Source: Aphanomyces cochlioides
Lineage: Eukaryota > Oomycota > Saprolegniomycetes > Saprolegniales > Verrucalvaceae
NCBI GenBank assembly: GCA_019828595.1
Contig: JAHQRK010000021.1
Location: 310,001 to 374,000, forward strand
Length of the DNA: 64,000 nucleotides
Reading direction: 5' to 3'
Shown here one piece after another: positions 8,248 through 56,477 of this stretch; positions within the stretch are counted from its first letter, which is position 1; each line of letters begins with the position of its first letter. A program made the translations under genes and the position numbers. Below the pieces are notes generated by a model. It ran no database searches. It was not told the origin of the DNA and was given only the letters and a program-made list of their open reading frames with translations.

Positions 8248-11200
8248 ACTGCTTGTCTGGAGTTCTCGATTTCTTCATTTCAACATGACGTCAATGCACA
8301 TGATCGCCAAGCTTGCACACAGCGCGCGTGTGCTAGGTTGCCAAACTACCGTAGCCTTCACGGTGTGGAGGTTCCACCTTGCTTTCGTGAGCACGCAAGT
8401 TGAGAGAGCTTGGTGATTAAATTCACCGCACAAACTTGAAGGCTCTGGATGCTGCAAATTTGAATCTACCTCTGATACATTGGCGTCTGCTCTCTCTTCT
8501 CTCGATGGCAGGGTAACTTGCATAAATAAGTTGGGAAAGTGATTTTTGCAGTAGAAGTCGACACGATCGGCGACATTTACCATTGTTTTCGTTTGCTGCA
8601 TGATGAATTATCAAACAACGATGCGACCAGGCAGCCATTGTCAACACATAAGAACGCCCAACTCGTCGTGGGAGCGAATTATTATCCAAAATGGCCCAAA
8701 TGCGTAGTTGCTAGCTAAAGTACACTCGCTCGTTTGGTGAAATCATTGTGGCTCTAGCACTCTCTCCCTCGACCTACAACGAGATGACTTGGGGCTTTTG
8801 TGATCCCACGCAGCCAGTACTTGCGGTATCTCATTTCACTCGACCAAAGAGTCATCGTGAGCCATAATGGACGACGCTCACTGAAGTATTCGACGCAACG
8901 AAAAGCGGCAACGCATCATTGTGAGTCTACCCAGTGTCCAATGCAGTTTAACTGGTGAATTTGGACACGACCTGAAGCTTCGGTCGACTCATCGTACAAG
9001 ACTATGTCATGTAGCACCATTTGTGCGATGAGTCCTCCATGTCCACTTCATTCGGAAAACTGTTCAATCTCACCAGCCGAGGGATATTTTCGCTTGGACT
9101 CTAGACGTCATCAAGCCATACCAAATCCTCATGCAGACGTTCTTTCAGGGGAATCGCGACACTCGAAATGCACACTCCTCTTGTCCATGCAACAACGTAG
9201 CGTTTTGGGAGAAGGAATAAAATATCATGATGGGTTGTGAATCCTGCTGTGGTAAGTTTTCCATTCAAAGGTTCTGGTGTCTCGGCAGATCATTCTACAC
9301 CAATAGGACTTTCCAAATGTCTATGGTTGATGGAAATGGGACTTCATTTGCCAATCTATCATTGCAAAGTTCAAGAGCCTTCGCTTTTAGCATGGTCCTC
9401 TATACCCTGGACTGGCTGGTATCGCATCAATTCTATGTCATGACATTCACGAAGCGACTTCACATTACCCATGGACAATTGGAGTCGCCGACATGAACGC
9501 ACCAGCCAGTGCTTGATGAAGGATTGAATCCTTCGCAGGGTTTGCCATCAATACGGCAAACGCTGGTGGTATGCAATCTCGAGCACAATGGAATCTCAAG
9601 CTGGGCGTCCCGTGGTTGACGATCTAGCCATGACAATAAGCTCAATCGCACTTGTTTGTCCGCTCTTCCATCAGCATCGTAGCACACGACAAAGACATCC
9701 GCCGCGCGATGACTAAAGAGCGGCATCGACCTGTAGCGTGGGTTCTTGCAATACAATTTGTGCAACGAGCCACCGATGGAGGGACACGCTGCGTGATGTT
9801 TTCGCATGACCAAAGACAGGAGAATCACCGCTTTCAAGTCGTTATAGAACGGATGACCAAATGCAGTTCTCGACAATTCTGGTCCCGATTTTATACGACG
9901 ATCTTTAGCACAGCCAGTGTTGTCAATATCACGCTCAAGCGGTGCTCGCTGTCGGAAGTGACTCCACAGAACAGCCCCTCGCGAGTATACGAGTGGAAAA
10001 CTGGACATGATCAAAGCAAAGAGAATAATTCCTAATGGCCGCCGTGAATATTTGAATGGATCTCGTCGGGAAACGTACCCAGGATGCCTTCAATCCCTTC
10101 GTTCTTCTGCGCCTGTGGAAGGAGCACGTCCCACAATTGTCGAAATATCCACACGACTGGAGTCATTGTAATAAAGCTTGTTAATGGCCCGCCATACACA
10201 TAGGCAGTGATTGCGAGAAAACCAGGATCGACCGGAGCAAAGGAAGCCTCCCAACGGCGCCACTTGACAAGTGAAGAAAGGCATCGCATACAGAGATATG
10301 CAAACCAGACCTACCACCCAGCCACAGAATTAGTCATTCCATGAGATTAGTACATACCGTTCGAGAAAGATACATGCAACCCAACGCGTAGGCCCACAAG
10401 TCTTGCAATTGACTCCTCGCATGACAACGATCATCATATATGGAGGGCCACACCAAATATCAACGGACATGGCCAAAGATACAAAAGGATCCGTCAAGAC
10501 GGCATATCCAGGATCGCCCAACACGACTTGGTAATGAATATACTTTTGGCCAAATCCCACAAAACGTAGATTGTGTACAAGAATTCGAAAATGACGGTAA
10601 TAACGAGTCCAAAGCACGTACAAGACATAAGTCGTGACGAGAGATCGAAAGACAAACTTGAACCAACTGAATTGCGGCGTTTCAAACCAGTAGAGCGCTA
10701 CCCAAGCATAGTAGCGAGGAGACGTCGATTCTGAAACAGGTTCGATTTCTTCCACCCAGAAGCACATCTCGCCGAAGATGATCCCGGCCACGTACTCGTG
10801 TTCACATATTTGCCATGGTTTCATCGTAGCTCGAGGCTCAACATTTGAGGTAAGAAACTTAGTCAAATACGATAGTACGCCAGCTGCATGATACATAGAG
10901 CCTAGCATATGTCATGACGTGGCTGTGTGTGGTTCAGAAGTACCAGGTAGACGAAGCAGGTAGTCTTGGATTTGATCGTCAGGAATCGAATATGGCAAAT
11001 CTAATGTGTACCGCACGGCAAATGTATTGCTTGATGCGTCTTGCACCAAGACGACAGTCGACGTCGAGTTGATCTTGTGGTACACAGATTGAAAGACTGT
11101 CGTCATGATCTGCGTGTACTCTTGAAACGAATGCCAGTCGGGAATATTCATCCGTTGAATCACACCAGGTAGTGGCTCCGTCATATACGCCATGAAAGGC

Positions 11201-17882: not shown

Positions 17883-17926
17883 TGGTCTTACCCGGACTTG
17901 AACCGGGGACCTTCTCCACGTCAAGG
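17883..17926 (-). tRNA. 3' half of an interrupted tRNA-Val(GAC)
   Basis: Read on the minus strand, it begins with the repeated anticodon segment CCTTGACGTGGAGAA and continues with the variable loop, a T arm (CCCGG stem, TTCAAGT loop, CCGGG stem), the acceptor strand TAAGACC and discriminator A. The acceptor strand pairs perfectly over seven bases with GGTCTTA in the 5' half at 27203. The two halves together give a standard 73-base cloverleaf. The gene is split by the retrotransposon and should not yield a tRNA. Confidence 0.9.
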
Positions 17927-20363
17927 TTAACTGAGTATATTAAAGAATTAATATGGCCCAAAAGGGCCGCAAACTAGACTTTCGATTTTGGCTTCATAGG
18001 TCGCATAATAAATATGTGTTGCGAAATGTGACCTTGGAAGGTTCTTGTGGAAAATCGTCCAGTGTTGCTTAACCGAAATAGACTTGGGGTGTGGGGTAAT
18101 TTGGAGGAACCATGGCAGAAAGAAAATGTTGCATGGCGATTCAGGCTGTGAAAAAATTCAACAGTATAGAGAAGAGCCATACAAGCAACTTTCTTTTCAT
18201 GACCATCTTGATCCGAGTTGGTGGTGGCGAGATACGAGGCAATTTCGGGTTGACTGTGGAGGACTTGAAAATTTGTATACAAAAGTCTTGATAAAAATTC
18301 CAAGTGGAGGTACGCAGTGAAAAGGCCAAGTAAATAAAAGCTTGAGTTGGGGTCGATCCATGGATAAATAAATCGACAGGAGAGGAAGGCCAAAAATTGA
18401 CAAAAGGGTCGAAACAGAGTAAAATCAGGCCCAAGGAAAATAAATTGGCAAGAGGTAGGAGCCCAAAAAATCCAAAAAGGTCGTGGCCAATTTAATTCGA
18501 CCTCAGGAGGCCGAATTAAATCGCTGGATCCATGGGAAAAGCTGGGTTTGAGAGAAAAGACCATCCAAAATAAAATGTTCTTGGACGATTTGACCAGCCA
18601 AAAAAATCAACGAGGTCGGTCGTTCCATGACAAGCAAAGTTGATTTCAGGAGCGTCTTCATCGGAGTTGATGGTGGCGAGATAGAGGGAAAATCCCTTGT
18701 GGGTTGGGCTTTTGGGGTAAACCTCCCAAAAATAATAAAAAAGGGTAAAATATTTGGGAGGTGCCATTTTGACATGCGCCATGCGCGGATAGGTCTCGAG
18801 CGCGAGCATCGTCGGAGCTGGATTTCGAACGGCGCCGCGGTGCATGGAGCCACTTGGCAGAATCGTAGCGACGATACGTACGAAGGATAGCGCACCATTA
18901 GAATCGCCATAGGTAGTGTGTAGCGGGAGAGCGCTAGCCAAAACCAGTGTTTTTTCCAATCGGGCGTCTCGGCGGCCAAATTTGAAGGAGTCATAACTTC
19001 CGAACGGCTATGAGATAGATAGCCATACTTGGTGTCCTCCATCAATGGAGGCTAGCGGTGGATGCACCATATTAATCGGTGCATATAGAGTCGTGTAGCT
19101 GAAATGAGCTACGATGGTCGTTTTGGAGCCTTATCGGCTCAAAATGGTTTGGAATCGGAAGTTGGGTTCCTGTGCTGCTATCATGGTGCTTGATAGCTCA
19201 AATCCATCGCGAGGACATTCTCGAGCCTCTCCAACTCTAAGTTGGGCGATCGGAGTTGATTTGCGTTCAGGAGCCATTCCGATGAGTTTTAGCCATTTCA
19301 CCAAAAGTTGTCGGGGCGACGGCAAGTAGGTTCCAGGGCTTCAATCATCGCTCTTGATGGCTTAAAACACTCGTCTAGCCATGATAGGATGGAAAAGAGT
19401 CATAGCCGGTCGATTGGAAATGATTTGCGACCTGTAGCCGACTTAAGGTTTTGTAGCCGGTGGATAGGGGCGGTTGACATTTTGGATTGAGGATTGCGAG
19501 CAAACCAGGATGTTTCAGGGCGTTCTAACGCTTTGGCTAGTCGTAATAAGTGGTGGAGCCACCCACTAGACCCCTAGATGTCACTCGGTGACCGTAGGGA
19601 AAGCGTTCGAGTTGTCCTGGTGTTTCACCGGTTTGGGTGACAGTCCAAAATGGGTTCATGGTTTTGAACCATAGATCTGCAATATGTGCTAGTTGGTGTC
19701 GGCATAGAGCTCGATTCAACTGAGATAACAAGCCACTAAACGTAGAAATCCACGCAGTAGGTCGAGAGAAATTTCACTTTTGGTGACGGGTTGAAACCGG
19801 TTCAAAATGGGTGTCACCGGGTCGAATTTCCTTTCGAATTTTGTTTCGCGAGTTTGGAGAGGTTTGAGCACTCGCAAACTGGCACATCTTGAGGAGGAGA
19901 CATGGGAGAATCTTTTAGGCACCGTGGCGCAATTTTCCCGAACAAAAAGTGTGCACTCGATTTTGAGATTTCGCCCCCAGGGGGAGACGTCGTAACAATT
20001 TTCAAAGTGTTGTTGTGAGAGAATCACTGCACTTTTTTGCAATCTAACGCTTGCGTTTGTCTGCTTGGGATGTCTAGCAACCCTGATGACCATTAGAATG
20101 TCTGAAATGATCGTCAGAGCAATGCCAGAGTTGTCGATAGTTTTGCCATTTTGGGTGAACGGATAAAGTCAAGTCGATTTTGTGAACGACTCGGCATGAG
20201 ATAAAGTTACTTGGTGTGTTCATAGAGCTCTGTTAGCTGGGGCTAACGAGCCATCAAACGCATGAAAAGGCCAAGTGGGTCGCGAGAAAATCCACTTTGA
20301 GTTTTCCCATTGGTTTGGGTGACTTAGGTGAATTTCTTCAAAGGTTGCAATATAACATGCCTT
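17927..20363 (-). repeat. Long 3' region of the retrotransposon built of diverged repeats
   Basis: No ORF2-like coding is present. Two diverged units occur at about 18050-18330 and 18500-18780; both contain 'gagttg.tggtggcgagat' and nearby conserved words. Further towards ORF2, a landmark with catagag-(T)-AGCTG and a following TGAG/CTAAC-type block recurs near 19080, 19697 and 20221, spaced about 520-620 bases, together with repeats of ggtttgggtgac. The whole region looks like degenerate tandem units of about 0.5 kb. The extreme 3' end (sense) is atatactcagttaa. Confidence 0.55.
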
Positions 20364-23300
20364 TTAAGGTTCCAAGGTCTCGTTTTGAGATTGTGGTAAG
20401 ATTTGGGCAGAGAACCACTCATTCTGGTGCAAACTATGAAGCACCGATGTCAAGGAAGCCTTCGTGGAGTCGTCCAAGGAGGCTCGATTGACTTGGTACA
20501 GATGCCGCTTTATAATGTGTCCTGCTAAGCTGGATATCGTCATAGGTGTTTTGTTAGGTAAATCTGGACGGTAAATCCGGTCGCACCGAGTTTTCCATAT
20601 TGTATACCAAATACAAGATAAAAAAATTGGCCACAGCAAATTAAATCCAGCTTGGAGGTCTTTGTCTTGGAGTGCTATAGGAGAGAAGAATATTTTTTCC
20701 ATGGTAGTTGGCCAAGTAAAGTTAAGGGATCTGGCCATGGATTTAAATGGACTCCAACATGCTCGAGTATATGGACAGTCCAAGGTGAAATGTTTATACG
20801 TCTCCACTTCATGACAAAAAATACAAGTGTTCGGGATATCGTCCGAGTACTTGAATTTGTATCGGAGAGGTAAGGCTCGTATAAGCAGTCGATATATGAA
20901 AGCACTATACGTTGGCAGAATAAATTTGGGCTGCCTGTAGAATGCGACCACTTTAATATTTTCCTTGTGGGCATAAAAATCCGAGGGTACCAATAAATGC
21001 GCTGTAGGTAAAACCTCCTGAGCTGATTTGGATTTAAATTCATGAGTTAAATCATCCAAGGTGGCATCAATAAAGGGTAAAAAGCCATCTTTAAAATTTC
21101 CAGCCCAAGTAATTTCGGTAGCCGTTTGCCGATAAGGTGTAGGCTGACGAAAATTTATTTCTGTGTTCTCGGGTGGAGATGGTAGAATAGCTTTAAGTCT
21201 CCCGTGTAGAGCATACCACCATTTATGATCGGGAGTGGCTAAATGGCGTCTAGAGCATTGAGATTTAATCCAATCTAACAGGATTTTCCGATCCATAAGA
21301 TTGCCATTTTCATCGAGTAGGTGGCGAACATGGGTAAAATTTAATTTTGCCAGTGATACAGCATAATCATAAGTCTTTGGATAGCAGTGTTCAAAGACAG
21401 TTTTCTCCAAGGGTAAGAATTGATTGTGCCAAAGTGGAAAATTTCCATCGACTTGTACTGTGGGAAATTTAAGTGGGGTTGGAGATAAGGATAACCATAG
21501 TCGAGTAAATGCTGACCAGAGAGGTGGAACCTTATCTTGGTGTGATATGGCTTTGTACATACTAGAGTGTGGACTCATGAAAAGGAGATCATAAAAATTT
21601 CCCCATGGACTGAAGGCTCTGGAGAGTAAATATTCTCCAATGGATAGCCATGCTGGCAATTTCGTTTGACCATACGAGTTGTGAGGTGGTGCTAGGAGTA
21701 GCTTGAAGCATTTAAAGGTCATGACCCGGTGTAGTTTTGACCACCAGTGGGTAGACGATTTAAATCCGAGACCACCTTGTGCTTTTGGAAGGAAAATAAT
21801 GTCCGAGTTGAATTGATGCAAATAACGTTGAGTCGAATATGGATCAATTGTATCGCCGTGAATAAATTGCTTGGCGACCTTGTCGAATAGTTTGGCATAT
21901 TCTTTGTCGATCGGAATAAATTGGAGTTGATACCAGAGCACAGGAAAACAAATTGACCTTAGGATTGTCACTTTTCCGGGTAGGGTTCGTGCTCGATAAG
22001 ACCATAGTTGTGTTCTTGAGACCAATTTCTCCAATAGCGAATTTAAACGTGTTGTGGCTGTGATGTTGGGAGAAATTAAAAGGCCCAACGATTTAGCAGG
22101 TTTGTCATCAGTAATAGCCAAAGGTGCCAGGTCTGGAGGTAAATTGGCATGGGTTAATAATTCTGTCTTGGAGAGATTTAACTTGAAACCAGAGATATCA
22201 CAGAATTTTTTGACGATGTCGAGTTGGAGTTGCAACGTCGATGTATTTTTGGAGTACAATTGGGAGTCGTCTGCATAATAGCTCCCGGTGTGAGTGTGAT
22301 GACCAATTCGTATGCCCAAATCTTTTCTCTTGCGTATGGCTAAACACATAGGTTCTAGCGCCAAGACAAATAAAAGAGGTGATAATGGGTCGCCTTGTAA
22401 AACACCACGTTGGATCTTAAATGGGTTGGATAAATGTCCATTGACAATAATTCGTCCACGACGATTTGAATAAAGCACTTTGACCATGTTGAGAAAGGAC
22501 GGTGGAAAATTAAATTCCTTCAGGGTTGCCAATAAATAGGAATGGTTGACCCTATCAAAGGCTTTTTCAAAGTCCAAGAGGGCCACAATAGACTCGGAGG
22601 AATAAAACTTCATAAAGTGATTCAGGTCTTCCAAGCGCAGTAAATTGGTTTGGATTGATCGACCACGAATAAAACCTGTTTGATCCGGGTGGACTATCGA
22701 CTGAATGATTCTCTGCATTCGTTCTGCAAGGACCATTGTGAGGATTTTCACGTCGATATTGACCAAGCTGATGGGACGGTAATTTTTTGGGAGTAGTTTG
22801 TCGTCCTTTTTGTACAGCAGTACAATTAAACTTGTCAATTGGGAGGGTGCCAAGTTGGAGTGAGAGTTGATTTGGTAATAGTATAGCATTTCCAAAGCCA
22901 GGGACCATTCATGGGGAAACATTTTCAAAATTTCGTAGGGCAGTGAATTTGGCCCAGGAGTTGAATTCCGTTTGGAGTGTTTAATGGCAAAATAAAATTC
23001 GTTTGCCGTGAGAGGAGCCCCAATAAATCTCTTGTCGTCGATATTGAGTCGGCGAGATATCAGAGTTTTTAAATACTTGGCCATTCTTTCCTTGTCAACT
23101 GCCTCATGGTCGCCATACAGGTCAGAATAAAACTCGTGGAGTGTCGAGGAAATTGATTGTTGATCAGAAGCAATATTTCCATTGGACATTTTGAGTGCCT
23201 TGAAGGGAGATTTTTGTAAAGGGATTGTGCGAGGTGGCTTCAGGTGAAATTTGGTACACCTTTCCGCTTTCTCGAGATGAGTTTGCATAGCAGTATCTTC

Positions 23301-24448
23301 CCGTAGGACTTTTTTCCTGTCATGATATTCATGTATGGCAGCTTGAATTGTTTTGATACGTGCCATCAAGGACGCACATGGGGCGTTTTGGTAATCCCGA
23401 ATCAATAAAGCCAAATCCATAGATAATTTCTTGAGAGGCCTTTGTTGATTTTCGACCAACTCGTCGTGTAGGTATTTTAATTGATTTCGCATGTTGGTGA
23501 TCATGGTGTCGAAATGTAGACCAACATTTGAGTTTAATTGGGTCTTGGTAAGGAAGGTTTCAAGTTGACGAGAGATAATTAATTTGGCCTTGTCATTGTT
23601 GAGAACCCATTGTGGTGTTTTCCATGGACCAGGTCCCATTGATACTGCTGGACGTTTGGTCAATAATTTGCAGGGAGTGTGGTCAGCATGAGGAATTAGT
23701 TCCAGGTGACGAAATTTCAGATGACGTAGGGATGCCATAGCAGACGAGATGAAAATATAGTCAAGCCGATTGACAAATTTTGGACTTGTGAAAGCACGTT
23801 TCAGTGGATTTTGTTGACGGAAAATGTCAACGAGGTGTAAATCTTGTAGCCATAGGTTGAGTTCATATGAGCCATGGGTCGCATGAGTCGAAGGACGGCA
23901 TGAATCTAATGTTGGGAGAAAATAACGTTAAAGTCGCCACCAACAATATGAAAAGCTTCGGGTGGAAAATCGCGAGGCAGATCATTAAAAAAATCCACAC
24001 GGTCGTGATAGTCGTACGGTGCATAGATGTTGTGAATAAAAACCGGGATATTGTCCAGAGTGGCCGATATAAGTAAATAACGACCACGGAGGAGAGGTTT
24101 GTCCCAAGAGTGGTTTAAATTGGTGCAATTGTCCAGAGGGCAGTCAGGATGAATAAATGTAGCAAGGCCTCCAGTAGGATGAGAGGTATGGCTGATGGAA
24201 TAAATTGGCTCCTCGTAGAAGAAAGTGCCTTGTTGGTTGGTATGTTTTTTCCAGTAGAAATTGATTTTGCCATGGTCGCTGGGGTAAGGCAGTCGAGTTT
24301 CTTGGATAAGTGAGATAGAGTTTTTGAGGAGAAAGTTCTTGAGAAGGTGGTGGAAAGAGTTGGAGAGACCATTTGTGTTGAGAGAAAACAAGCTAATATC
24401 CCAGTCGATAATGGCTTGTGGTAGCGCGTTAATTGTGGTCACGGTCAT
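20364..24448 (-). CDS. Retrotransposon ORF2: endonuclease, reverse transcriptase, zinc knuckle (one frameshift)
   Basis: Starts at 24448. The endonuclease part has LFSLNTNGL, SLIQETRLP (catalytic Glu), IVGGDFNVIF (Asp and Asn), NRLDYIFIS and ADHTPC (catalytic Asp/His region). A frame change in the C run near 23924, after GGDFNVIF, separates it from the 1124-codon downstream frame. The reverse transcriptase shows VALLDFEKAFDRVNHSYLL, RGVLQGDPLSPLLFVLALEP and YYADDSQLY (catalytic YADD at 22280-22266). The C-terminal knuckle is CIFCHEVETYKHFTLDC. About 1360 residues is normal for L1/Tx1-type ORF2. With the frameshift this copy is probably not autonomous; everything else is intact, so it looks young. 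Confidence 0.9.
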
Positions 24449-24548
24449 GATTAATATTTGGGTTTTGATTTTTTGACTTTAAGTCGTTGTGTTGGTTTGG
24501 GTCGGGGTGTGGTGATTGTGGTTTTAATTGATTTTGTGTGTTGGCGAG

Positions 24549-27076
24549 TCAATTGGAGTCTGCATTGTCACCATCGCCAAGTTCTTTGTAGTCGAGTTCA
24601 GGAGCCTTTTCGTCCGGAAGTAAAGTTAACAAGGCATCAGTATCCGAGTCAAAACACTTCGTAGGGTCAATTGTTTGGAGTGCCAGATCTTTCACAATAT
24701 GGCTCAACTCTTCTTCAATTTTATGATGTTGCACCAGGTTTCCAGCAGCAGGACTGGAAATTAATTTAATCAAGGAGGCGTCCGTGATTAAATTGCAATT
24801 GGGCCAACGGTGGACTTTGTCTTTCAGGCACAGATTAATATACTCATCGTTCGTATAAGCTTCAGGTGCTCTGTTGGACAGAAATAGATCGATTGCTGCT
24901 AGAGATCTTCTCATGTGGTAGTCTTCGTCATTTGGACACAAACTTTGGAATAGATTTGTGGGGCTGTAATTTTCAGGAGGAGGATGGCCATGCTGTTTTT
25001 GGTAGTACGAGGTAAATCGTTCTTCATCAATAGCTTGCATGGGATTTTCTCCAGCCATTAAACGTATAATTCCTCTCGAGGCAATTAAATTGGATGCGAT
25101 TTTGCGAGATTTTGGGTCCATATAGATATTTCCAATAAAGCCAGGTTGGTTGAGGGTTTCATCATGAAATACCAATGGGTTGGTAGATTCATTCAGTTTT
25201 TTCTTCAGCTCTGTGATTTGAGCCTTCACTTTGGCTCCTGCTGGTTTCGTAGAGGCTGGAATTTTTTTGGGTATCGTTGATTTTGGGGACGAAGCAGGAC
25301 GTTTTTTGGGCGTGTCGGTAGGAACGATATCAAGATGGAATCGAGGAACCGTTGTGCCTGAAGTTGTCACGTCAGAGTCGTCTGAGCTGAGGATAGCGAA
25401 TCGATTTTGTGTTGGAATCGAGGTAGCTGATATTTTGTATTGGGGACCTTGAATAAAACCGGCTCGAGTTGGTTTAAATTCGTCCTGGGATAAATTGGGT
25501 TTGTCTGTGAGAATAATATTATTCTCGCTCGAGCCCTTGGGTGATTGTGGAGGATTTAATATCTTCTTGGGTTGAGCTACCATTTCTTCCTCTTCGATAT
25601 TTGATTTCTCCTCTTGTTCCATGTCCACATCGCTTGACAGGTCGACAAAGTTTTCCTTGCCATTTTGATTTTCCTTGGGATCGGCATTAGGGGATTCGGA
25701 GTTTCCAGTTGTGCCAGTATTTTCCTTCGGGGTGTTGGGTGGTTGGTTTTCTGTCGATGGATTTTCGGGAGCATCAGTTTTTTCCTCTGTAGCGTTTTCC
25801 TCGACATGGTCTGTATTCTTTTTAGCGTCGTCTTTTTGTTTGGCTTTTTCCAGTCTAGCTTGAACGCTGGGAGGGACCGTTTGATTGAGGGACCGAATTT
25901 TATGTTGAAAAACATAAACTTGGTTTTGGATCTCGATTTCTCTCAGAGGCTCGCCTCCATCATCTGGTACCAATGCCAAAGGAGGAGTTTCGGAGTCAAA
26001 AAGGACTCGAAATTGGGTCGAGCGTAATAAATTGTCAGTACTGGGGTTAAAACCAACAATGACGCAGTGAGTGAGCTCTTCCAACTTTTTCAAAATCGCT
26101 TTTTGAATATCGTGATCCACCAGGTTGTTGAAAGTAATAAAATAAAGTTTCGAGTGGGGAGAATATTCAGGCACAGTAAATTCTTGTTTTCCCAGACGAA
26201 GGGAGGTTCCACAAGTTTTGCGCAATAGATCATCGTCATAAAACGTCAAAGAGAGAGTAGTCGGGTTTTTCTTGTGGAACAGAATTTCCTTGAATTTCGA
26301 TTCCCAAAGCGTACCCGGGTTTTGGGTAATTAAATTCGCTCGGATTTGGTAGTCCTTGACTTGACGGAAAGCTTCTCCCAGAGGAATGTCCACAGTGCAA
26401 GCCTTCGAGGATGGAGTTTTTTCAAGATGTCTTCAATGAATTCATCCATAGCAGTAGGGTTTTGGCGGAATTCTCGAGCTTGTCGAATTAATTCTTCCAA
26501 TTCAGAGTCGTCAATGGGATGCCCACCAGTGTTGCGAACCAATTGGGTTTTCACATGGCGGGCTCCTTCCCATACATTATTTTTCTTCGAGTTGGTTTTT
26601 TTGCCTTCGTTGTTGGACGAAGCTTGTTTTTTGGGGTTGGAGGGTTTGGCAGGAGAGTTTGTCCCATCTTTGGAGGGATTTTTCGAATTAGGTAAAACTC
26701 GTCCATGAGGGGTGCCGTCAGGATGGGTAATATTCTCCCCAGGCTTGTCAGAATCCTTGAGTAATTTGCCACCATTGGCGTCAGAGGCAGGTTTTTCGTT
26801 GGAACCATTAATATCCATACCCATTCCTGCATCATCGGGTCCATTTTTTTTGTCCATATTTGGACCAGTGTCACCACCTAAGTCAACACCATCTTGGTTG
26901 GAAACATTTTCCCTACGAAGAGAGTCGGACGCAGCGGCGCTGTTCCTAGAGGAAGGAGGTTTTTCAGCGGCTTCTCGGCTCGAACCGGGCGTCGCTTGGC
27001 TAGGGTCAGGCGTCGATTCACGTTGAGCGAATCGAGACACCGTCGAAAGGATGGTTTTTTCCGCGCTAGAGGCCAT
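24549..27076 (-). CDS. Retrotransposon ORF1 (two overlapping frames)
   Basis: The first frame (27076-26330) begins MASSAEKTILSTVSRFAQRE and is low-complexity, rich in Ser, Pro, Asn and Gly, then basic. The second frame (about 26420-24549) continues with LITQNPGTLWESKFKEILFH and a strongly acidic/Pro-rich middle. The change from first to second frame is -1 and maps to the A6 run in TTGAAAAAACTCC near 26420. No CCHC knuckle is obvious. By position it is the nucleic-acid-binding ORF1 product, but sequence similarity to known ORF1 proteins cannot be judged by eye. Mutation and ribosomal frameshifting are both possible. Confidence 0.65.
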
Positions 27077-27159
27077 GACGTTGTCGAAAGCACCTAAAAA
27101 GCAAGATTTTCCGTTGGGGGGCTGTGGTAGTTTAACCTACAAAGCAAAAACGAAAGTCA

Positions 27160-27203
27160 TTCTCCACGTCAAGGAGACGTGATAACCGCTACACTATAAG
27201 ACC
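27160..27203 (-). tRNA. 5' half of the interrupted tRNA-Val(GAC)
   Basis: Read on the minus strand from 27203: acceptor strand GGTCTTA, D arm with an A-box match (TAGTGTAGCGG), and the complete anticodon arm (TCTCC stem, loop TTGACGT, GGAGA stem). U33 precedes anticodon GAC, which reads valine GUC codons. After GTGGAGAA the sequence changes to the retrotransposon 5' end. The anticodon arm is repeated in the other half as the target duplication. Confidence 0.9.
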
Positions 27204-27725: not shown

Positions 27726-29247
27726 TTATGTACGAATTTGGAATCGGCCTGCCTGGGTGAGGGTGCGCACGCCCTTGTAGGGCTTGTAGTTTTCGTTCGT
27801 CAAGATGAGCGTCTCGACGGCGAGGCCACTGACGGTCGTGAAGGGGACTTTGAAGCCAAGCTGAACGATGGGTTTCTCGTCGGGAATGGCTGCATTTTGC
27901 TGGAGCACCACCGTGCCTTTGAGTGTGGGGGAGAGGATTTTCTTGAGCTTGCCAACGTTCCACTTGAGTGTCTTCGTTGAATCGTCAAACAAACAACTGC
28001 CAGCGTCCGTGTTGGCATCTACAGTGCGCACGCTCTTGGGAAACGTGACCTCCACGGTAATGTCTTCAGCTACAGGCATGTCAAGGTCAGAAACCATTTG
28101 ATGATGATGGTTTGTACTTTGGATGGGCTTCTTGGTATTGCTTACCAATGTTGGCATGTTGCGCGTGCCAATTGTGATCTCGACAGTCCCGTTACCCTTT
28201 TCAGAGTACTTGACGTTGGGTTGGCAAAAGATAGGCGGCACCATTTGATTGACTTGCACACGGTATTGCATCAACTAGCCAAATGCTTGTCAGGCTACAA
28301 GGAGTCTATGCAAGTGTACTTCGAATTGGCCATCCGGTGGGACGAACGAAATGACACGTTCGCGTTCGTATCGAGCGTAGCGTACGCATGGATGGAAGGC
28401 ACAGTCGTCAATGACGGATGGATCGACGAACACCATTGTGAGATCAGGGACGCCTGAGAGACGACTGTGGCCATTGATCGTGCCATTGACTTCGCACGAG
28501 ATCATTTGGCCATGACTGTCGACAATCGCATCAATTTCTTCAACAATATCAAAGTAAATTTCATTCTACATAAAGAGGGTCAGCCATGGCATGCGGGGAA
28601 ACGAAGCGTCGTACCTGCGTGTACTTAACACCAGCTTTACGCCACGGGATATTCGAAATAGCTCCGTCAGGTAGTTGATCGCTGATACGTGATTTGCCGG
28701 ATACAATAGCAGCAATGCGGTTTACGGTCGAAGGTGGGGCAACCATGGCCTTCAAGGCATTTGGTTCAGTCGTCAAGGGGTATCCATTATCAAGCATTTC
28801 TTCTAGCAATTGGTACACCGTAGAGAAGTTATCTTTGATCGCGCTTTCTTCAAAGCTGCCAAAGTAGTCTCGAAAGACTGCGACGACGCGATGGAGGAAT
28901 TCAATCACAAACAACGGTGAAATCTACGGACACCCAATTACGCAAACCAGTCCCGACCAGAACCAGACTTACCTCGGTCGTAACAACAGCCAAGAGGAAC
29001 AGTCCCTCTCGAAAGACGCTGATGAAGTAGTGCTTGGCCGTACTAATGACTGGTGGCACATCCTATCGGCACAAGACACGAGGTGAGGATCGATCTTCTG
29101 ACCATCTCGACATCGTACTTCTCGCAATTTGTACTTGTTGACTTCTTCGACGAAAAAGTCGCACACATTTCGGTTCGTAATACCCCGCCAATGCTTTTCA
29201 ATGATGATTTCGCCTGTTGACGTGATGATAAACAAGCTTTGGATCAT
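27726..29247 (-). CDS. AP3M: AP-3 adaptor complex mu subunit, copy 1
   Basis: The start at 29247 gives MIQSLFIITSTGEIIIEKHW, the canonical opening of the longin-type N domain of AP mu chains. Further exons read PPVISTAKHYFISVFREGLF, FVIEFLHRVVAVFRDYFG, YQLLEEMLDNGYPLTTEPNA and ISNIPWRKAGVKYTQ. The C-terminal mu-homology domain follows (SGVPDLTMVFVDPSVIDDC, YKPYKGVRTLTQAGRFQIRT). The NIPWR..GVKY and the KPFKGVKY-like ending are diagnostic of AP-3 mu. AP-3 sorts cargo from endosomes/Golgi to lysosome-related compartments. Introns are 45-60 bases, at least five of them. The downstream copy at 30021-31552 is a diverged paralogue in the same orientation. Confidence 0.88.
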
Positions 29248-36129: not shown

Positions 36130-37641
36130 TTAAAACGAAGCAGGGCTCGTGAAGTTCTTGTGGTACGACACGTTGGTGTACACAATGCGTTGGTAGCTCG
36201 AGCCAGCCTTGCAGTATGGGAAATGCACATCGTCCCATGAAGGAGCAGCAGTTGAAGGTTCATCAGGGTTGAACAAAGGCTTCGCCGAGATGTAAGTGAC
36301 GTACACACCGAAGAAGATAGAGACGAGCACGGCAAGGTAGGCCCAGATACGTTCAGGGATGGAGAGACGGTTGCCAAAGTGCTTCAAGTAGAACACAATT
36401 GGCAAGATCATGCACGAGATGGCAATGCACGAAGCGCCGGTAAAGTCGAGCAAATCGAGGAGACGGTTCTTCCAGCCGCAAGCAATGGCGACGGCAGCAG
36501 CGACGATCACAATACGCATAGCGGCGACCTTGGCGTAGACGCCAGGTTGGCGGTAGGTGTGCGAGTCCAAGTCATGGAGAGCAACACCGTCAATCGTGCG
36601 TTCACCTTGTTCAGCAGGCTTTTCCACCTTTTCTTCGGCGGCATCAGGGGTTTCAGCACCTTCGTAGGCAGCTTCGACTTCATGGATGGCATCGAAGTTG
36701 TGCTTGTGGAGACCGAAAAGCACACGTTCCAAAATGTAGAAACCAGGAATCATAATGACAGCGAAGGCAATCGTGACGTGGAGTTGCATGCAAAGCATAG
36801 CCAAGATCACACCACCACGGTTGGCAGAGAAACCGTAAGCAGTGGGTTGACCGGCAATGGAGAAGAGCAAGTTACCAGGGATTTGGCAACCGACGACAGA
36901 CACACCGGTAATACCGACGATCAAGAAGAAGACAGAAATGATGCCCAAAGTGACGTAAATGCAGCGGGGCATGCGGGTGGGGTCCGAATGTTCACGTTGC
37001 AAGGCAGGGATGACAATACCAGCACCGTAAGCCAAGGCGTAGTTACCGAACACTGAAGCGACAGCCTTGAAGTTGGGCGAAGGGTGAGGTAGATCCAATC
37101 CATCAGGGGAGATGTTGTCGACCAACAAGTAGAGAGCAATGGCATCAGCCAAGACCGTGCCCAAAGCACCAGCAGCAGCGGCGAAAGCACCTTCCTTCAA
37201 GGTTGGGGTCAAGCACACTGGCAAGAGGGAAATGCCCATCAAGATAATCCAAGTCACTTGTCCGTAACTGTTGGGGAACATAAAGGTGCAGATCGTACCG
37301 CCCAAGACCAAGAAAGCAATAGGGACCAAGATGCAGGTCAACAATTGCGTGACGAGCATGAGCCATCGGCCCCATTGGCCAAGGCAAAAATATCCCAAGT
37401 CACCCAACGTACGGACAGACTTTGGGGCTTCAATAAGCACTTTGGACAAGCACACCGTCGAGTAAATGTTGACAGCAGCCATGAAAATCAAACCAAGGAT
37501 GGCGGCTGGCAAACCAGCACTGGCAAAGTTCTTGGGTACACCAAGCGTACCAATGCCATACACACAGCAAAAGATGGAGAAACACATCTTGAGATCCTCG
37601 AGGGTGAGGAACGGCTTGCCCATGGTTTTTTTGGAAAGCAA
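36130..37641 (-). CDS. Amino acid/auxin permease family (AAAP) transporter
   Basis: A single exon of 503 codons with high GC and strong codon bias, suggesting good expression. The start is 37641 (MLSKKTMGKPF) or the second Met at 37623. About eleven hydrophobic spans are visible, beginning with MCFSIFCCVYGIGTLGVPKN, the AAAP signature in the first transmembrane segment, followed by PAAILGLIFMAAVNIYSTVC, WLMLVTQLLTCILVPIAFLV and FGNYALAYGAGIVIPALQRE. A charged cytoplasmic loop of about 55 residues (EAAYEGAETPDAAEEKVEKP) precedes the last spans. The family transports neutral or cationic amino acids with protons across plasma or vacuolar membranes. The long antisense frame at 36379-37056 is a codon-bias shadow. 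Confidence 0.85.
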   Translation of the reverse strand: MLSKKTMGKPFLTLEDLKMCFSIFCCVYGIGTLGVPKNFASAGLPAAILGLIFMAAVNIYSTVCLSKVLIEAPKSVRTLGDLGYFCLGQWGRWLMLVTQLLTCILVPIAFLVLGGTICTFMFPNSYGQVTWIILMGISLLPVCLTPTLKEGAFAAAAGALGTVLADAIALYLLVDNISPDGLDLPHPSPNFKAVASVFGNYALAYGAGIVIPALQREHSDPTRMPRCIYVTLGIISVFFLIVGITGVSVVGCQIPGNLLFSIAGQPTAYGFSANRGGVILAMLCMQLHVTIAFAVIMIPGFYILERVLFGLHKHNFDAIHEVEAAYEGAETPDAAEEKVEKPAEQGERTIDGVALHDLDSHTYRQPGVYAKVAAMRIVIVAAAVAIACGWKNRLLDLLDFTGASCIAISCMILPIVFYLKHFGNRLSIPERIWAYLAVLVSIFFGVYVTYISAKPLFNPDEPSTAAPSWDDVHFPYCKAGSSYQRIVYTNVSYHKNFTSPASF

Positions 37642-40920: not shown

Positions 40921-42452
40921 TTACGACGTTTGGTTGGAGAGACGATGTGTCGGCGTGGAGCAACTCCGACGAGGCAGCAAGAAGTCCATGTCCCGCATCT
41001 GTCGATAGAAATGCAATTGGTGTGTCTTCTCCATGTCAGACATTGCTGGCAAGACATTCGACGGCGGATCCAAAACAACTTGATTGTCGTCCTCTTCTTC
41101 CCACGACTCACTTGGTTTATACTGGGCGTACGTTGTCGACGGCGTGCTTGAACTTCTCGACTCGCGGCGTTGTTGATGTGGATGCAGCACAATGCGATCG
41201 CCGCCAACTCCACCGCCATGAATTGGACTTGGATACGACAAACCACCCGACGATGGACGTTGATGCTGCCCATACGGCGACGTGACAACGTATCGAACTC
41301 GTGGATCAACGAATTCCGACTCGGCGGTCAACCTTGACGACCGGCTTAGTCTTGGGAATGCTGTTGGCACAACGGGCGGTGTCGCTTCCGACGACGCAAC
41401 CGTGGCTGCACACGAGACACATAATGAAACACGACACAAGCCAAGCGTGTCTCGGTCAGGCACGTCGGCTTCACGACTGCAGTTGCCACACATGACTTCG
41501 CCGCACCGACGACAGTTTGCACGTTCTTGGAGCGGTTTGAACTTGACTTGACAGACACAACACCGACGACGATGGGAGACGGGAATGAGCTCTGAAGACG
41601 GGAGGATGGTCATGTGCTGCATGCGCATCACTCGGAAATGCGCTTCCATATCGGCCATCGTCCGCGCTCGCTTTTTAATCCCAATGCGAAGGATCCACCT
41701 TGGAATATTGCCGCGCAAGTCAACATGGAAGATTTGCGCCGCGCGAAGTACGCCAGGCCGATCCGTTTCTTGAAAAACTGTGCCGCAAGCCGTGAAGATG
41801 CCGCGGACGATGCCCATCGTCGAATAAAGCGACGGCACCCAGCAGAGATCGACAGAGTGAAGAACACGGGCCCATCCTTTCGTGCCATTCAGGACAAAAT
41901 CATCACAGCACTACATCAACTTTCCATCAGCATGTCCGAGTTCTGCCGCCATGGACATACCTCGACGACGCAAAAGTCACGATTTCGACAGGGCACTGGC
42001 GTTTCCTGGACAAACCACTTGAGGCCAATGTAGTTTCGTGGAAAGTCATCTGTCGGCGGCGCCAATGTCTTGAGTATCGCGCCATCAATGACATCTCGGT
42101 TGAACCGTTTGATAAACTGTCGGTACGCATCCTGTGTGTCACAACGGTGGAGTGCCGCGGCTTCATCGAGCGTGGCGTAGATTTCAGTGACGCTCATGAA
42201 GATCGTATCTTTGCCGCGACCGAGGTTGCGATCGACGTAGATTTGGACTTCTCGATTCGCGTGTTCGAGTTTCCACTTGTGTGGCCCCGAGCCATCCAGC
42301 CTTGCATTCAAGACGAGATGCTTCAGCGCTTCCACGCCAGTCTCCATGATCGCATTCGTCTGGCCTGGAGCATACGCTGGACTCTGGAAGAAGTTTGGTG
42401 GCAGCGGATGCGAGAGGCGGCGCCGATTCATCTTGACAAGTGGAAGCGCCAA
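40921..42452 (-). CDS. START-like/FYVE zinc-finger protein 1
   Basis: Two exons, 42452-41961 and 41910-40921, with a 50-base intron. The N-terminal START-like half begins HPLPPNFFQSPAYAPGQTNA and includes IYVDRNLGRGKDTIFMSVTE and FPRNYIGLKWFVQETPVPCR; after the intron CDDFVLNGTKGWARVLHSV continues it. The FYVE-type finger follows: CCVCQVKFKPLQERANCRRC, GEVMCGNCSREADV and VSLCVSC. The RR/KHHCR core is altered to ERANCRRC, so PI3P affinity may be reduced. The C-terminal tail is Ser/Pro-rich. FYVE domains bind PI3P on endosomes; START-like folds bind lipids. Start could also be the Met at 42431. Confidence 0.78.
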
Positions 42453-55089: not shown

Positions 55090-56477
55090 ATGGCGCCACC
55101 AAAGAGACGGCATGTCAAGTTTCCGCTGCCGCCAGAGTACTTTCCGCCGCCGAACTTTAACGAGACACAGAAAGAGATTTTGATCCAGACAGGGCTGGAA
55201 GCATTGACCAAGCTTGTGCGAGATACGCGCATTCGCGGCGGTCCGATCGATTGGATCTTGGACTACGACGAGGAAGGTGTGCAAATATACTGGGGTTCGG
55301 ACATTGGACAAGCGAAAGAAACAGTCTTTATGAGTGTGACCGAGCTGCAGGCCACACTGGAGGAAGCGGATGAGATTCACGAGAGCGACGACGACTTCTC
55401 GTACCGCGAATTCTCGGATAAATTCAATGACGATGTGTGCGATTGCCGTGTCATCGAGACTTTGGCGCCAAAAACTCCCACGCATCCTCACAACTACGTT
55501 GGTGTCAAATGGCTCTGTTTTGAATCGCCTCCACCCGTGCGGAATCGCGATTTCATCTTTGTTGAGGTACCTCCAATCCTTCCTTGCATGTTTTGATCAT
55601 CTTGTTCGTGTAGTGTCGTGACGACTTCAATTTGAATGGCGTGAAAGGATGGGCTCGTGTCATTCACTCTGTGGAATTACCTCAATGTGTGCCTGACTTT
55701 CGTCGATCTCTGGGTCTGGTGCGTGCAAAGTTTGTCGCGAGTGGCACAGTGTTCAAAGAGATTCCATCGCGTCCTGGATATCTCCAAGTGCTCCAATTGT
55801 TCAATGTTGATTTGGGTGGCAAAGTCCCCATGTGGATCCAACGGATTGGCATGAAGAAACGTGCCACGTCCCTCGTCAAGTTTGACAAACACTTTCGAGC
55901 AAAGCGCATGAGTCGTCGTCCACTTGTCGACGAAGAAGATCTCGTGCGCAAGTCAGCTCGCAAACGTTGCTTTCTCTGCCAAACCAAGTTTACTCCATTT
56001 GTGACGCGCCATCATTGCCGTTTGTGTGGCGAAGTTGTCTGTCGTCATTGCAGTCGGCGTTGGGAGCTAACAGACCCTCGTCGTATCACGAGGTCGATTC
56101 GTGCTTGTGTCAAGTGCTCGACAGAGACCGCATCGTCGTCAAGGGCTCGCACGGTGCGCTCTGAACCAGCAGATGTCCGCGATATTCGTGCTGTGAGCAT
56201 GCCCAGATCCTGTCCAGCGTCGCCTCCTCCAATTCTGGAGTCGACTTCTGGTGACAGGCGGCGTAGAGTTGTCTCGGCCGTCGCCCAACACGGTCTTGTC
56301 AATGACGATATAATGGTTCCATCGTCGAATGTGAAGGTCATGGAAACCGCGAGGGATTGGACAGAGATATTGACAAATTCGGCCACACCAGAGCAATTAC
56401 GTGCACTCTTTCAGCAGATGAAGAAGCTCAAGCTCGAAGAACGTTTTGGCTCGGATGCGTTAGCCGCAGCGTCATAG
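55090..56477 (+). CDS. START-like/FYVE zinc-finger protein 4
   Basis: Exons 55090-55566 and 55614-56477 with a 47-base intron. The start MAPPKRRHVKFPLPPEYFPP precedes GLEALTKLVRDTRIRGGPID, TVFMSVTELQATLEEADEIH and HNYVGVKWLCFESPPPVRNR; exon 2 begins CRDDFNLNGVKGWARVIHSV. The FYVE finger is the most canonical of the four: CFLCQTKFTPFVTRHHCRLC, GEVVCRHCSRRWEL and IRACVKC, with the R-HHCR-x-C core that contacts PI3P. The C-terminus has PEQLRALFQQMKKLKLEERF, a short coiled coil. Likely an endosomal PI3P-binding protein with a lipid-binding START-like domain. Confidence 0.82.

Follow-up and report, generated by a model that had tools for sequence, protein, structure and literature searches.

The long interspersed nuclear elements (LINEs) R1 and R2 reside in ribosomal DNA (rDNA), a tandem multicopy target with intact spares, and are known for a precise 3′ junction. 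Keno is placed in the Tx1 clade of LINEs, which combine an apurinic/apyrimidinic (APE) endonuclease with a reverse transcriptase, and elements of the NeSL kind bear a restriction-like endonuclease instead. In the portions of the literature drawn on here, Keno targets the genes for U2 small nuclear RNA, a multicopy small RNA gene (PMC4640811), and transfer RNA (tRNA) genes are also LINE targets, as in NeSL-1_TV (tRNA-Pro), LIN15_SM (tRNA-Arg) and LIN25_SM (tRNA-Glu), NeSL-related retrotransposons without long terminal repeats (non-LTR) that are reported as tRNA-gene-specific (PMC4640811). The Dictyostelium LINE TRE5-A selects tRNA genes, and also 5S ribosomal RNA (rRNA) genes, and integrates upstream of them (PMC5391098), and several groups of the Dada DNA transposons (Dada-tV, -tD, -tA and -tL) insert around the anticodon, the family not being strict for one tRNA (PMC8869645). 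Here we describe a 9233-bp non-LTR retrotransposon of the oomycete Aphanomyces cochlioides that lies inside a tRNA-Val(GAC) gene and whose other copies recur in the anticodon arms of several tRNA genes. The analysis started from a stretch of 64,000 nucleotides (contig JAHQRK010000021.1, positions 310,001 to 374,000), referred to below as the window.

The element occupies positions 17927..27159 on the minus strand, with its 5′ end at 27159 and its 3′ end at 17927, as set by the target-site duplication and by other copies that share these ends. Its 3′ terminus reads ...ACTCAGTTAA and has no poly-A. On either side lies one half of a tRNA-Val(GAC) gene, also on the minus strand: the 5′ half with the upstream copy of the duplication at 27160..27203, and the 3′ half with the downstream copy at 17884..17926. 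The 15-bp duplication CCTTGACGTGGAGAA itself is found at the 5′ end of the element (27160..27174, minus strand) and at its 3′ end (17912..17926, minus strand), and takes in the final two bases on the 5′ side of the anticodon stem, followed by the loop, the 3′ side of the stem and a single base beyond it. When the outer flanks are joined, ARAGORN recognises a complete 74-base tRNA-Val(GAC), and in the unjoined window it finds no tRNA at all. Chance does not account for a perfect 15-bp repeat that coincides with the two termini of a 9.2-kb element whose flanks also join into a complete tRNA. The initial annotation had proposed such a retrotransposon within a tRNA-Val gene, in tRNA sense and with a 15-bp duplication, and had suggested a tRNA scan of the joined flanks; all of this is borne out, with the element borders corrected to 17927 and 27159.

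Copies of the element were searched for in the whole 76.2-Mb assembly of 94 contigs (contigs are designated C15, C22 and so on, and loci by L numbers). The assembly has 22 above-cut-off matches to the elicitin family, which are proteins of oomycetes, and 14 control genomes have none, in keeping with an oomycete host. A 17-base pattern made of the element 3′ end plus CC (at most one mismatch) gave 145 genome matches, compared with one for the reversed control, and a 5′-end pattern (at most two mismatches) gave 64. Among the 40 of 215 candidates that were scored in a 3′-end search, the flanks were tRNA-Val, tRNA-Ala(AGC), tRNA-Ala(CGC) and tRNA-Ala(TGC), each broken in the anticodon arm, with one copy elsewhere. 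In all, 100 junction rows were read, including at least one that appears twice because loci overlap; they were drawn from a listing of 100 of the 145 3′-end places and from extra places reached through two patterns that skip the Ala and Val arrays and through 5′ ends. These rows form 46 flank clusters, and when five that stem from a shared locus or array (L019, rows two and three of L033, row two of L054, and L064) are merged by hand, 41 distinct flank contexts are left. Since the sampling favours sites other than Ala and Val, and since contexts were counted rather than copies, the share of tRNA genes is, if anything, understated.

These 41 contexts comprise 20 that are tRNA or tRNA-like, one 5S rRNA gene and 20 in unrelated sequence. 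The tRNA contexts are divided among Val (2), Ala-AGC (2), Ala-CGC (1), Ala-TGC (4), Asp (3, two of which look like two offsets within one array), Thr-AGT (1), Phe (1) and six degenerate ones (L041, L049, L052, L055, L066 and L118), with Val, Ala (three anticodons) and Thr being named by ARAGORN on joined flanks. The 5S context is represented by L101, L104, L120 and L121, and Rfam RF00001 is matched in L101 and L104. A B-box pattern follows just past the junction in 16 of the 20 tRNA contexts and in none of the 20 unrelated ones; the four tRNA contexts that are devoid of it are Ala(AGC) twice, Ala(CGC) and a degenerate Ala-like one. In all 20 tRNA contexts the element 3′ end leads on to the T arm, which places the element in tRNA sense. 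The flank inspection suggested in the initial annotation thus reveals cuts in tRNA anticodon arms that recur across copies. The possibility that the tRNA halves are part of the element, which an absence of intact tRNA-Val(GAC) genes would have implied, was rejected on two grounds: the flanking tRNA varies from copy to copy, and uninterrupted anticodon arms of tRNA-Val(GAC) occur 116 times in the genome, each matching a 26-base pattern exactly. The genome also contains 107 uninterrupted tRNA-Ala anticodon arms, and among the matches listed the spare Val and Ala arms sit mostly in tandem arrays.

Several observations weigh against a simple tRNA-specific element. First, 20 of the 41 contexts are neither tRNA-like nor 5S, meaning that specificity is partial, and the strict pattern of R1 and R2, in which nearly all copies occupy one target, is not seen. 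For the six degenerate contexts, and for Asp and Phe, the assignment was made by visual inspection of the 3′ flank. Bare tRNA 3′ halves mostly go unrecognised by Rfam, which named a tRNA or 5S in only four of 18 tRNA- or 5S-flanked loci (L023, L096, L101 and L104) and returned sub-threshold transfer-messenger RNA for two more (L063 and L105); the tRNA naming there consequently rests on reading and on the B-box pattern. The one Asp site that was rebuilt (on C25) shows no duplication, and the off-target sites bear only a weak version of the Ala sequence. Many array copies may duplicate one insertion, so the 145 matches are not a count of events, and they also include extra 3′ ends inside the two mini-inserts described below. 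We have further checked whether the off-targets are unrecognised RNA genes: Rfam (E ≤ 0.1) gave no match in 20 loci (19 off-target plus L118, with L033 excluded), a weak control that covers the 3′ side only, and ARAGORN found no tRNA in seven rebuilt off-target sites. Judged from these flanks, specificity for the tRNA anticodon arm is strong, yet neither absolute nor limited to Val. The likely specificity suggested by the initial annotation therefore survives as a preference (20 of 41 tRNA-like) and not as exclusivity, and Val is one target among several isoacceptors and 5S rRNA. Copies in unrelated sequence, which it had named as grounds for doubt, do exist in 20 of the 41 contexts, the other 21 being the 20 tRNA or tRNA-like ones and 5S.

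A single chance insertion into a tRNA gene, followed by tandem duplication of the array, could in principle produce many tRNA-flanked copies, and duplication of this kind has occurred: array copies on C15, C22 and C24 have common flanks, and on C22 a truncated unit that starts at element position 8343 repeats every 1555 bp. As the origin of the whole pattern, however, this explanation is refuted. Val, Ala (three anticodons) and Thr genes by ARAGORN, and Asp and Phe genes by eye, are hit on several contigs. Moreover, after a tRNA 5′ half the element starts at eight different truncation points (positions 1675, 3074, 3194, 5849, 7181, 8322, 8343 and 8687) as well as at full length, and the 5′ halves preceding these starts are broken at the same site within a few nucleotides. 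Eight truncation points plus full-length copies at one site argue for independent insertions, since varied 5′ truncation at one site is the mark of separate target-primed events and not of one copied insertion.

Empty sites were rebuilt from 17 flank pairs. Fifteen of them have a duplication, 13–18 bp in 14 cases and 10 bp in one, and these 15 comprise six tRNAs recognised by ARAGORN (Ala TGC three times, AGC, CGC and Thr(AGT)), two 5S and seven off-target sites. The rebuilt AGC and CGC sites mix flanks from two copies in the same kind of array, and the two pairs without a duplication are the C25 Asp variant and a mis-matched pair on C15. The 3′ junction falls before nucleotide 30 in Val, 28 in Ala(AGC, CGC) and 27 in Thr, and at about nucleotide 35 in 5S, given the assigned gene start. 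The Val, Ala and Thr tRNAs contain further CC dinucleotides elsewhere, yet the junction lies at the CC of the anticodon arm. In the genome, no base other than C follows the exact 3′ end, and C plus a non-C base follows it in two cases, one of which is tRNA-Phe by eye, as against the 145 matches to the 3′ end plus CC with at most one mismatch. The flank reading that gave the 41 contexts itself required a C after the element 3′ end. Such junctions at nucleotides 27–30 inside the tRNA differ from the integration of TRE5 and TRE3 elements at a distance outside the gene, as TRE5-A inserts about 47 bp upstream of the tRNA gene (PMC5391098). The resemblance to Dada is closer in position, the anticodon region of the same kinds of tRNA genes being used (PMC8869645). 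Dada, however, has a DDE transposase and 6–7 bp duplications (PMC3706591), whereas the present element has a reverse transcriptase and duplications of 10–18 bp, mostly 13–18 bp; around the anticodon Dada is also inserted opposite to the tRNA orientation (PMC8869645), whereas the present LINE lies in sense.

The coding capacity identifies the kind of enzyme involved. In the window copy, all on the minus strand, the second open reading frame (ORF2) consists of an endonuclease piece at 23906..24448, which contains the motifs LNTNGL, IQETR, NIYAP and GDFN and is ended by a frame change, and a reverse transcriptase piece with a C-terminal CCHC at 20364..23738 (PF00078, E = 5.3e-39; zf-RVT, E = 1.8e-5, just under the curated cut-off). 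ORF1 is likewise split into a first piece of 248 residues at 26330..27076 and an out-of-frame second piece of 614 residues at 24549..26393 (GTG start according to the tool), the latter without a Pfam match at E ≤ 0.001. The window copy is thus damaged, with its endonuclease and reverse transcriptase pieces in different frames and its two ORF1 pieces as well. A 1371-residue frame over endonuclease and reverse transcriptase is open in 36 of the 41 best-scoring copies (window included), one of which is marked with an internal stop, and in copy L025 the frame of the first ORF1 piece continues for 377 residues, up to the end of the locus.

The ORF2 product of copy L024 has a LINE-type reverse transcriptase (RVT_1, E = 7.4e-39) and matches human LINE-1 ORF2p over both the endonuclease and the reverse transcriptase (E = 2.8e-66, alignment from residue 129). 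Its N-terminal part matches the L1 endonuclease 2v0s (E = 7e-7), as expected for an apurinic-like endonuclease, and the motifs LNTNGL, IQETR, NIYAP, GDFN, RLDYI and ADHTP, which we take to be those of an APE endonuclease, could be located together with YADD and CCHC; a Pfam scan of this protein returned no endonuclease family. R2 proteins align over the reverse transcriptase part only (E = 1.7e-26), and this, together with the APE motifs, speaks against a restriction-like endonuclease, although the PD-(D/E)xK motif itself was not searched for. Pfam gave no transposase family in ORF2 or in the submitted ORF1 pieces. Target-site duplications and 5′ truncation with a constant 3′ end are also those of a LINE. 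On its predicted proteins, the element is an L1-like LINE with an APE-type endonuclease; of the Tx1-like architecture given in the initial annotation this part stands, and assignment at the Tx1 level is not supported beyond it.

Several factors may direct this enzyme to tRNA genes. The window contains 5237 CC sites in 54.5 kb (both strands), corresponding to some 7 million genome-wide, and CC alone therefore cannot set target choice. Some reading of the bases after CC is indicated by the off-targets, since they lean to the Ala sequence: six of 20 start with CCGC as against 5.7% of background CC sites (p = 0.0007), and over positions 3–16 the 19 sites that start with CC are closer to the Ala anticodon arm than background CC sites are (p ~ 0.0005). 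There is a small bias in this set, since the patterns used to find a few of the sites select on positions 9–10. Pure DNA recognition by ORF2 of a longer site near CCGCTT(N)GCATGCGG, with the off-targets as partial matches, would account for this leaning. It falls short of being probable in our view, because Val (CCTTGACGTGGAGAA) and Phe (CTGAAGATCTG) have little in common with Ala past CC or C, and only two of 20 off-targets begin with CCGCTT. Given the weak Ala likeness of the off-targets, no strict rule, whether based on sequence or on tRNA, suffices alone.

An alternative, which we consider rather unlikely, is guidance by RNA polymerase III (Pol III), in which an element protein would bind a factor on active Pol III genes and the endonuclease would cut a nearby CC some 27–35 nucleotides in. 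The tRNA and 5S genes differ in sequence but have Pol III in common and are cut at similar depth (nucleotides 27–30 versus about 35). Furthermore, CC and CCGCTT (18 sites in the same 54.5 kb) are too frequent to account for the excess of tRNA genes, and in tRNA-Asp the junction falls at either of two CC positions (L044 and L045). TRE5-A, for which factor guidance through TFIIIB has been proposed in Dictyostelium, also integrates near 5S genes, as described in the part of the source used here (PMC5391098), but it inserts outside the gene. The 5S evidence is limited to one flank context, and sequence alone might explain it, given the likeness of the 5S site CCGTTCGCTC to that of Ala(CGC), CCGCTTCGCA; nor was another Pol III gene recognised in the off-target flanks by Rfam (weak, 3′ side only) or by ARAGORN (seven rebuilt sites). 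If Pol III tethering did operate, which is a tentative suggestion, one enzyme could serve many unrelated tRNA sequences inside rather than beside the gene. Sequence reading, Pol III guidance or the two together are candidate causes of the tRNA preference.

A third explanation is based on shape. An inverted repeat at the target is inherent in every tRNA, and the anticodon-arm hairpin, extruded in the DNA, could be what is recognised. We consider this improbable, because the D and T arms, which are hairpins too, are unhit in the contexts examined, and because the off-targets show no clear excess of GG at the far end (7 of 20, versus 26% of background CC sites). The palindrome signal, a candidate prompted by the CCGC...GCGG of tRNA-Ala, was dropped after this comparison.

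The element, its ends and duplications, the position, orientation and variety of its tRNA targets, its truncations and the spare genes can all be read from the assembled DNA. On this basis we think it very probable that an APE-type L1-like LINE of an oomycete has tRNA genes as its main refuge and inserts by target-primed reverse transcription. Within the anticodon arm, the ORF2 endonuclease would nick the bottom strand immediately 5′ of a CC (as read on the tRNA-sense strand), and the reverse transcriptase would copy the element RNA from its 3′ end ...CAGTTAA onto the resulting primer, which has GG-3′ at its end. A cut of the second strand some 13–18 nucleotides on would generate the duplication, to be followed by repair, and copies that stop early would be 5′-truncated at the same site. 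The tandem tRNA-Val and tRNA-Ala arrays hold intact genes alongside disrupted ones, much like rDNA in the case of R1 and R2, and spare copies of the tRNA genes probably limit the damage of insertion. The order of the cuts, the priming and the harmlessness to the host are what we infer from this arrangement.

Some further features of the arrays and of the element may be mentioned. The tRNA-Val(GAC) tandem array spans C15:1085861-1461358, with neighbours often about 1.18 kb apart, and all matches listed lie on C15. Among eukaryotes, GAC is unusual as a Val anticodon. Phytophthora infestans is reported with tRNA-Val(AAC) and with large tRNA arrays in the part of the source drawn on (PMC9584435). 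Different tRNA-Ala arrays (L028, L079, L084 and L092) have the upstream leader GGTTGACGGCAAAAGTAAAAGTGGGGG in common, perhaps a common promoter or a recombination tract. Two loci, L054 (C15:1123943) in a tRNA-Val unit and L033 (C23:520765-520832) at an unrelated site, contain a nearly identical mini-insert of about 35 nucleotides, made of two copies of the element's last bases linked by CCGCTTAA; it looks like the product of an RNA that read on into a tRNA-Ala target. Two elements seem to occupy one target in tandem at C23:520765-530078 (L033 and L064), where the 3′ end of one, CCAAAGCAGTGACAA and the beginning of another are adjacent.

Within the window copy, a 3′ untranslated region of 2.4 kb (17927..20363, minus strand) has an internal repeat of about 66 bp, in copies that are 81% identical, and open frames of 150–210 residues, most of which recur in other copies. 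At the 5′ end, an Rfam scan of 521 bases (E ≤ 1) found no ribozyme, only sub-cut-off tRNA-like (25.6 bits) and small-RNA (18.9 bits) matches. The tRNA-like match (window 27128-27203, cut-off 29) extends from the tRNA 5′ half into the beginning of the element, and is probably due to the tRNA half alone, because a 5′-truncated copy (L023, 7990-8088) scores similarly (28.0 bits). A possible B box in the element's first bases was judged by eye to be chance. For ORF1, a weak NTNH_C match (E = 0.055, below the cut-off) was taken as noise, and an AlphaFold model of 398 residues had a predicted local distance difference test (pLDDT) score of 39.6, a fold that is not usable. Relatives were looked for in viral contigs and none was confirmed. 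Neighbouring genes of the window, at 27726-28274, 36130-37641, 40921-41838 and 55632-56477, encode an adaptor-complex medium subunit, an amino-acid transporter and two FYVE-domain proteins.

The element uses the tRNA anticodon arm whereas Keno uses U2 genes, and tRNA rather than rRNA genes, with looser specificity than R1 and R2. In contrast to the NeSL-related LINEs it is APE-type, enters several isoacceptors plus 5S, and has half of its contexts elsewhere. A literature search over the titles and abstract openings listed, outside the subscription literature, found no description of an APE-type LINE inside tRNA genes. We therefore tentatively regard an APE-type LINE at this location as new, tRNA-gene-targeting LINEs as such being already known; the distinct specificity put forward in the initial annotation stands as a preference for the anticodon arm, and NeSL-1_TV, LIN15_SM and LIN25_SM are tRNA-gene-specific non-LTR precedents in the excerpted source (PMC4640811).

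As far as the sources drawn on go, tRNA-gene-specific LINEs have so far been NeSL-related (PMC4640811) or inserted beside the tRNA gene (PMC5391098). The present genome adds many near-identical APE-type copies at a fixed spot within several tRNA genes. With the same protein, several unrelated targets and an off-target set for comparison, it offers a natural experiment on recognition by L1-type endonucleases, and the element could serve as an APE-type scaffold for DNA writing into a multicopy safe site. Should Pol III tethering prove true, targeting inside the gene, as in Dada and NeSL, would be united in one element with guidance by a factor, as in TRE5-A. For the oomycetes, in which large tRNA arrays are reported in the part of the source used here (PMC9584435), the finding means that such arrays can house a mobile element.

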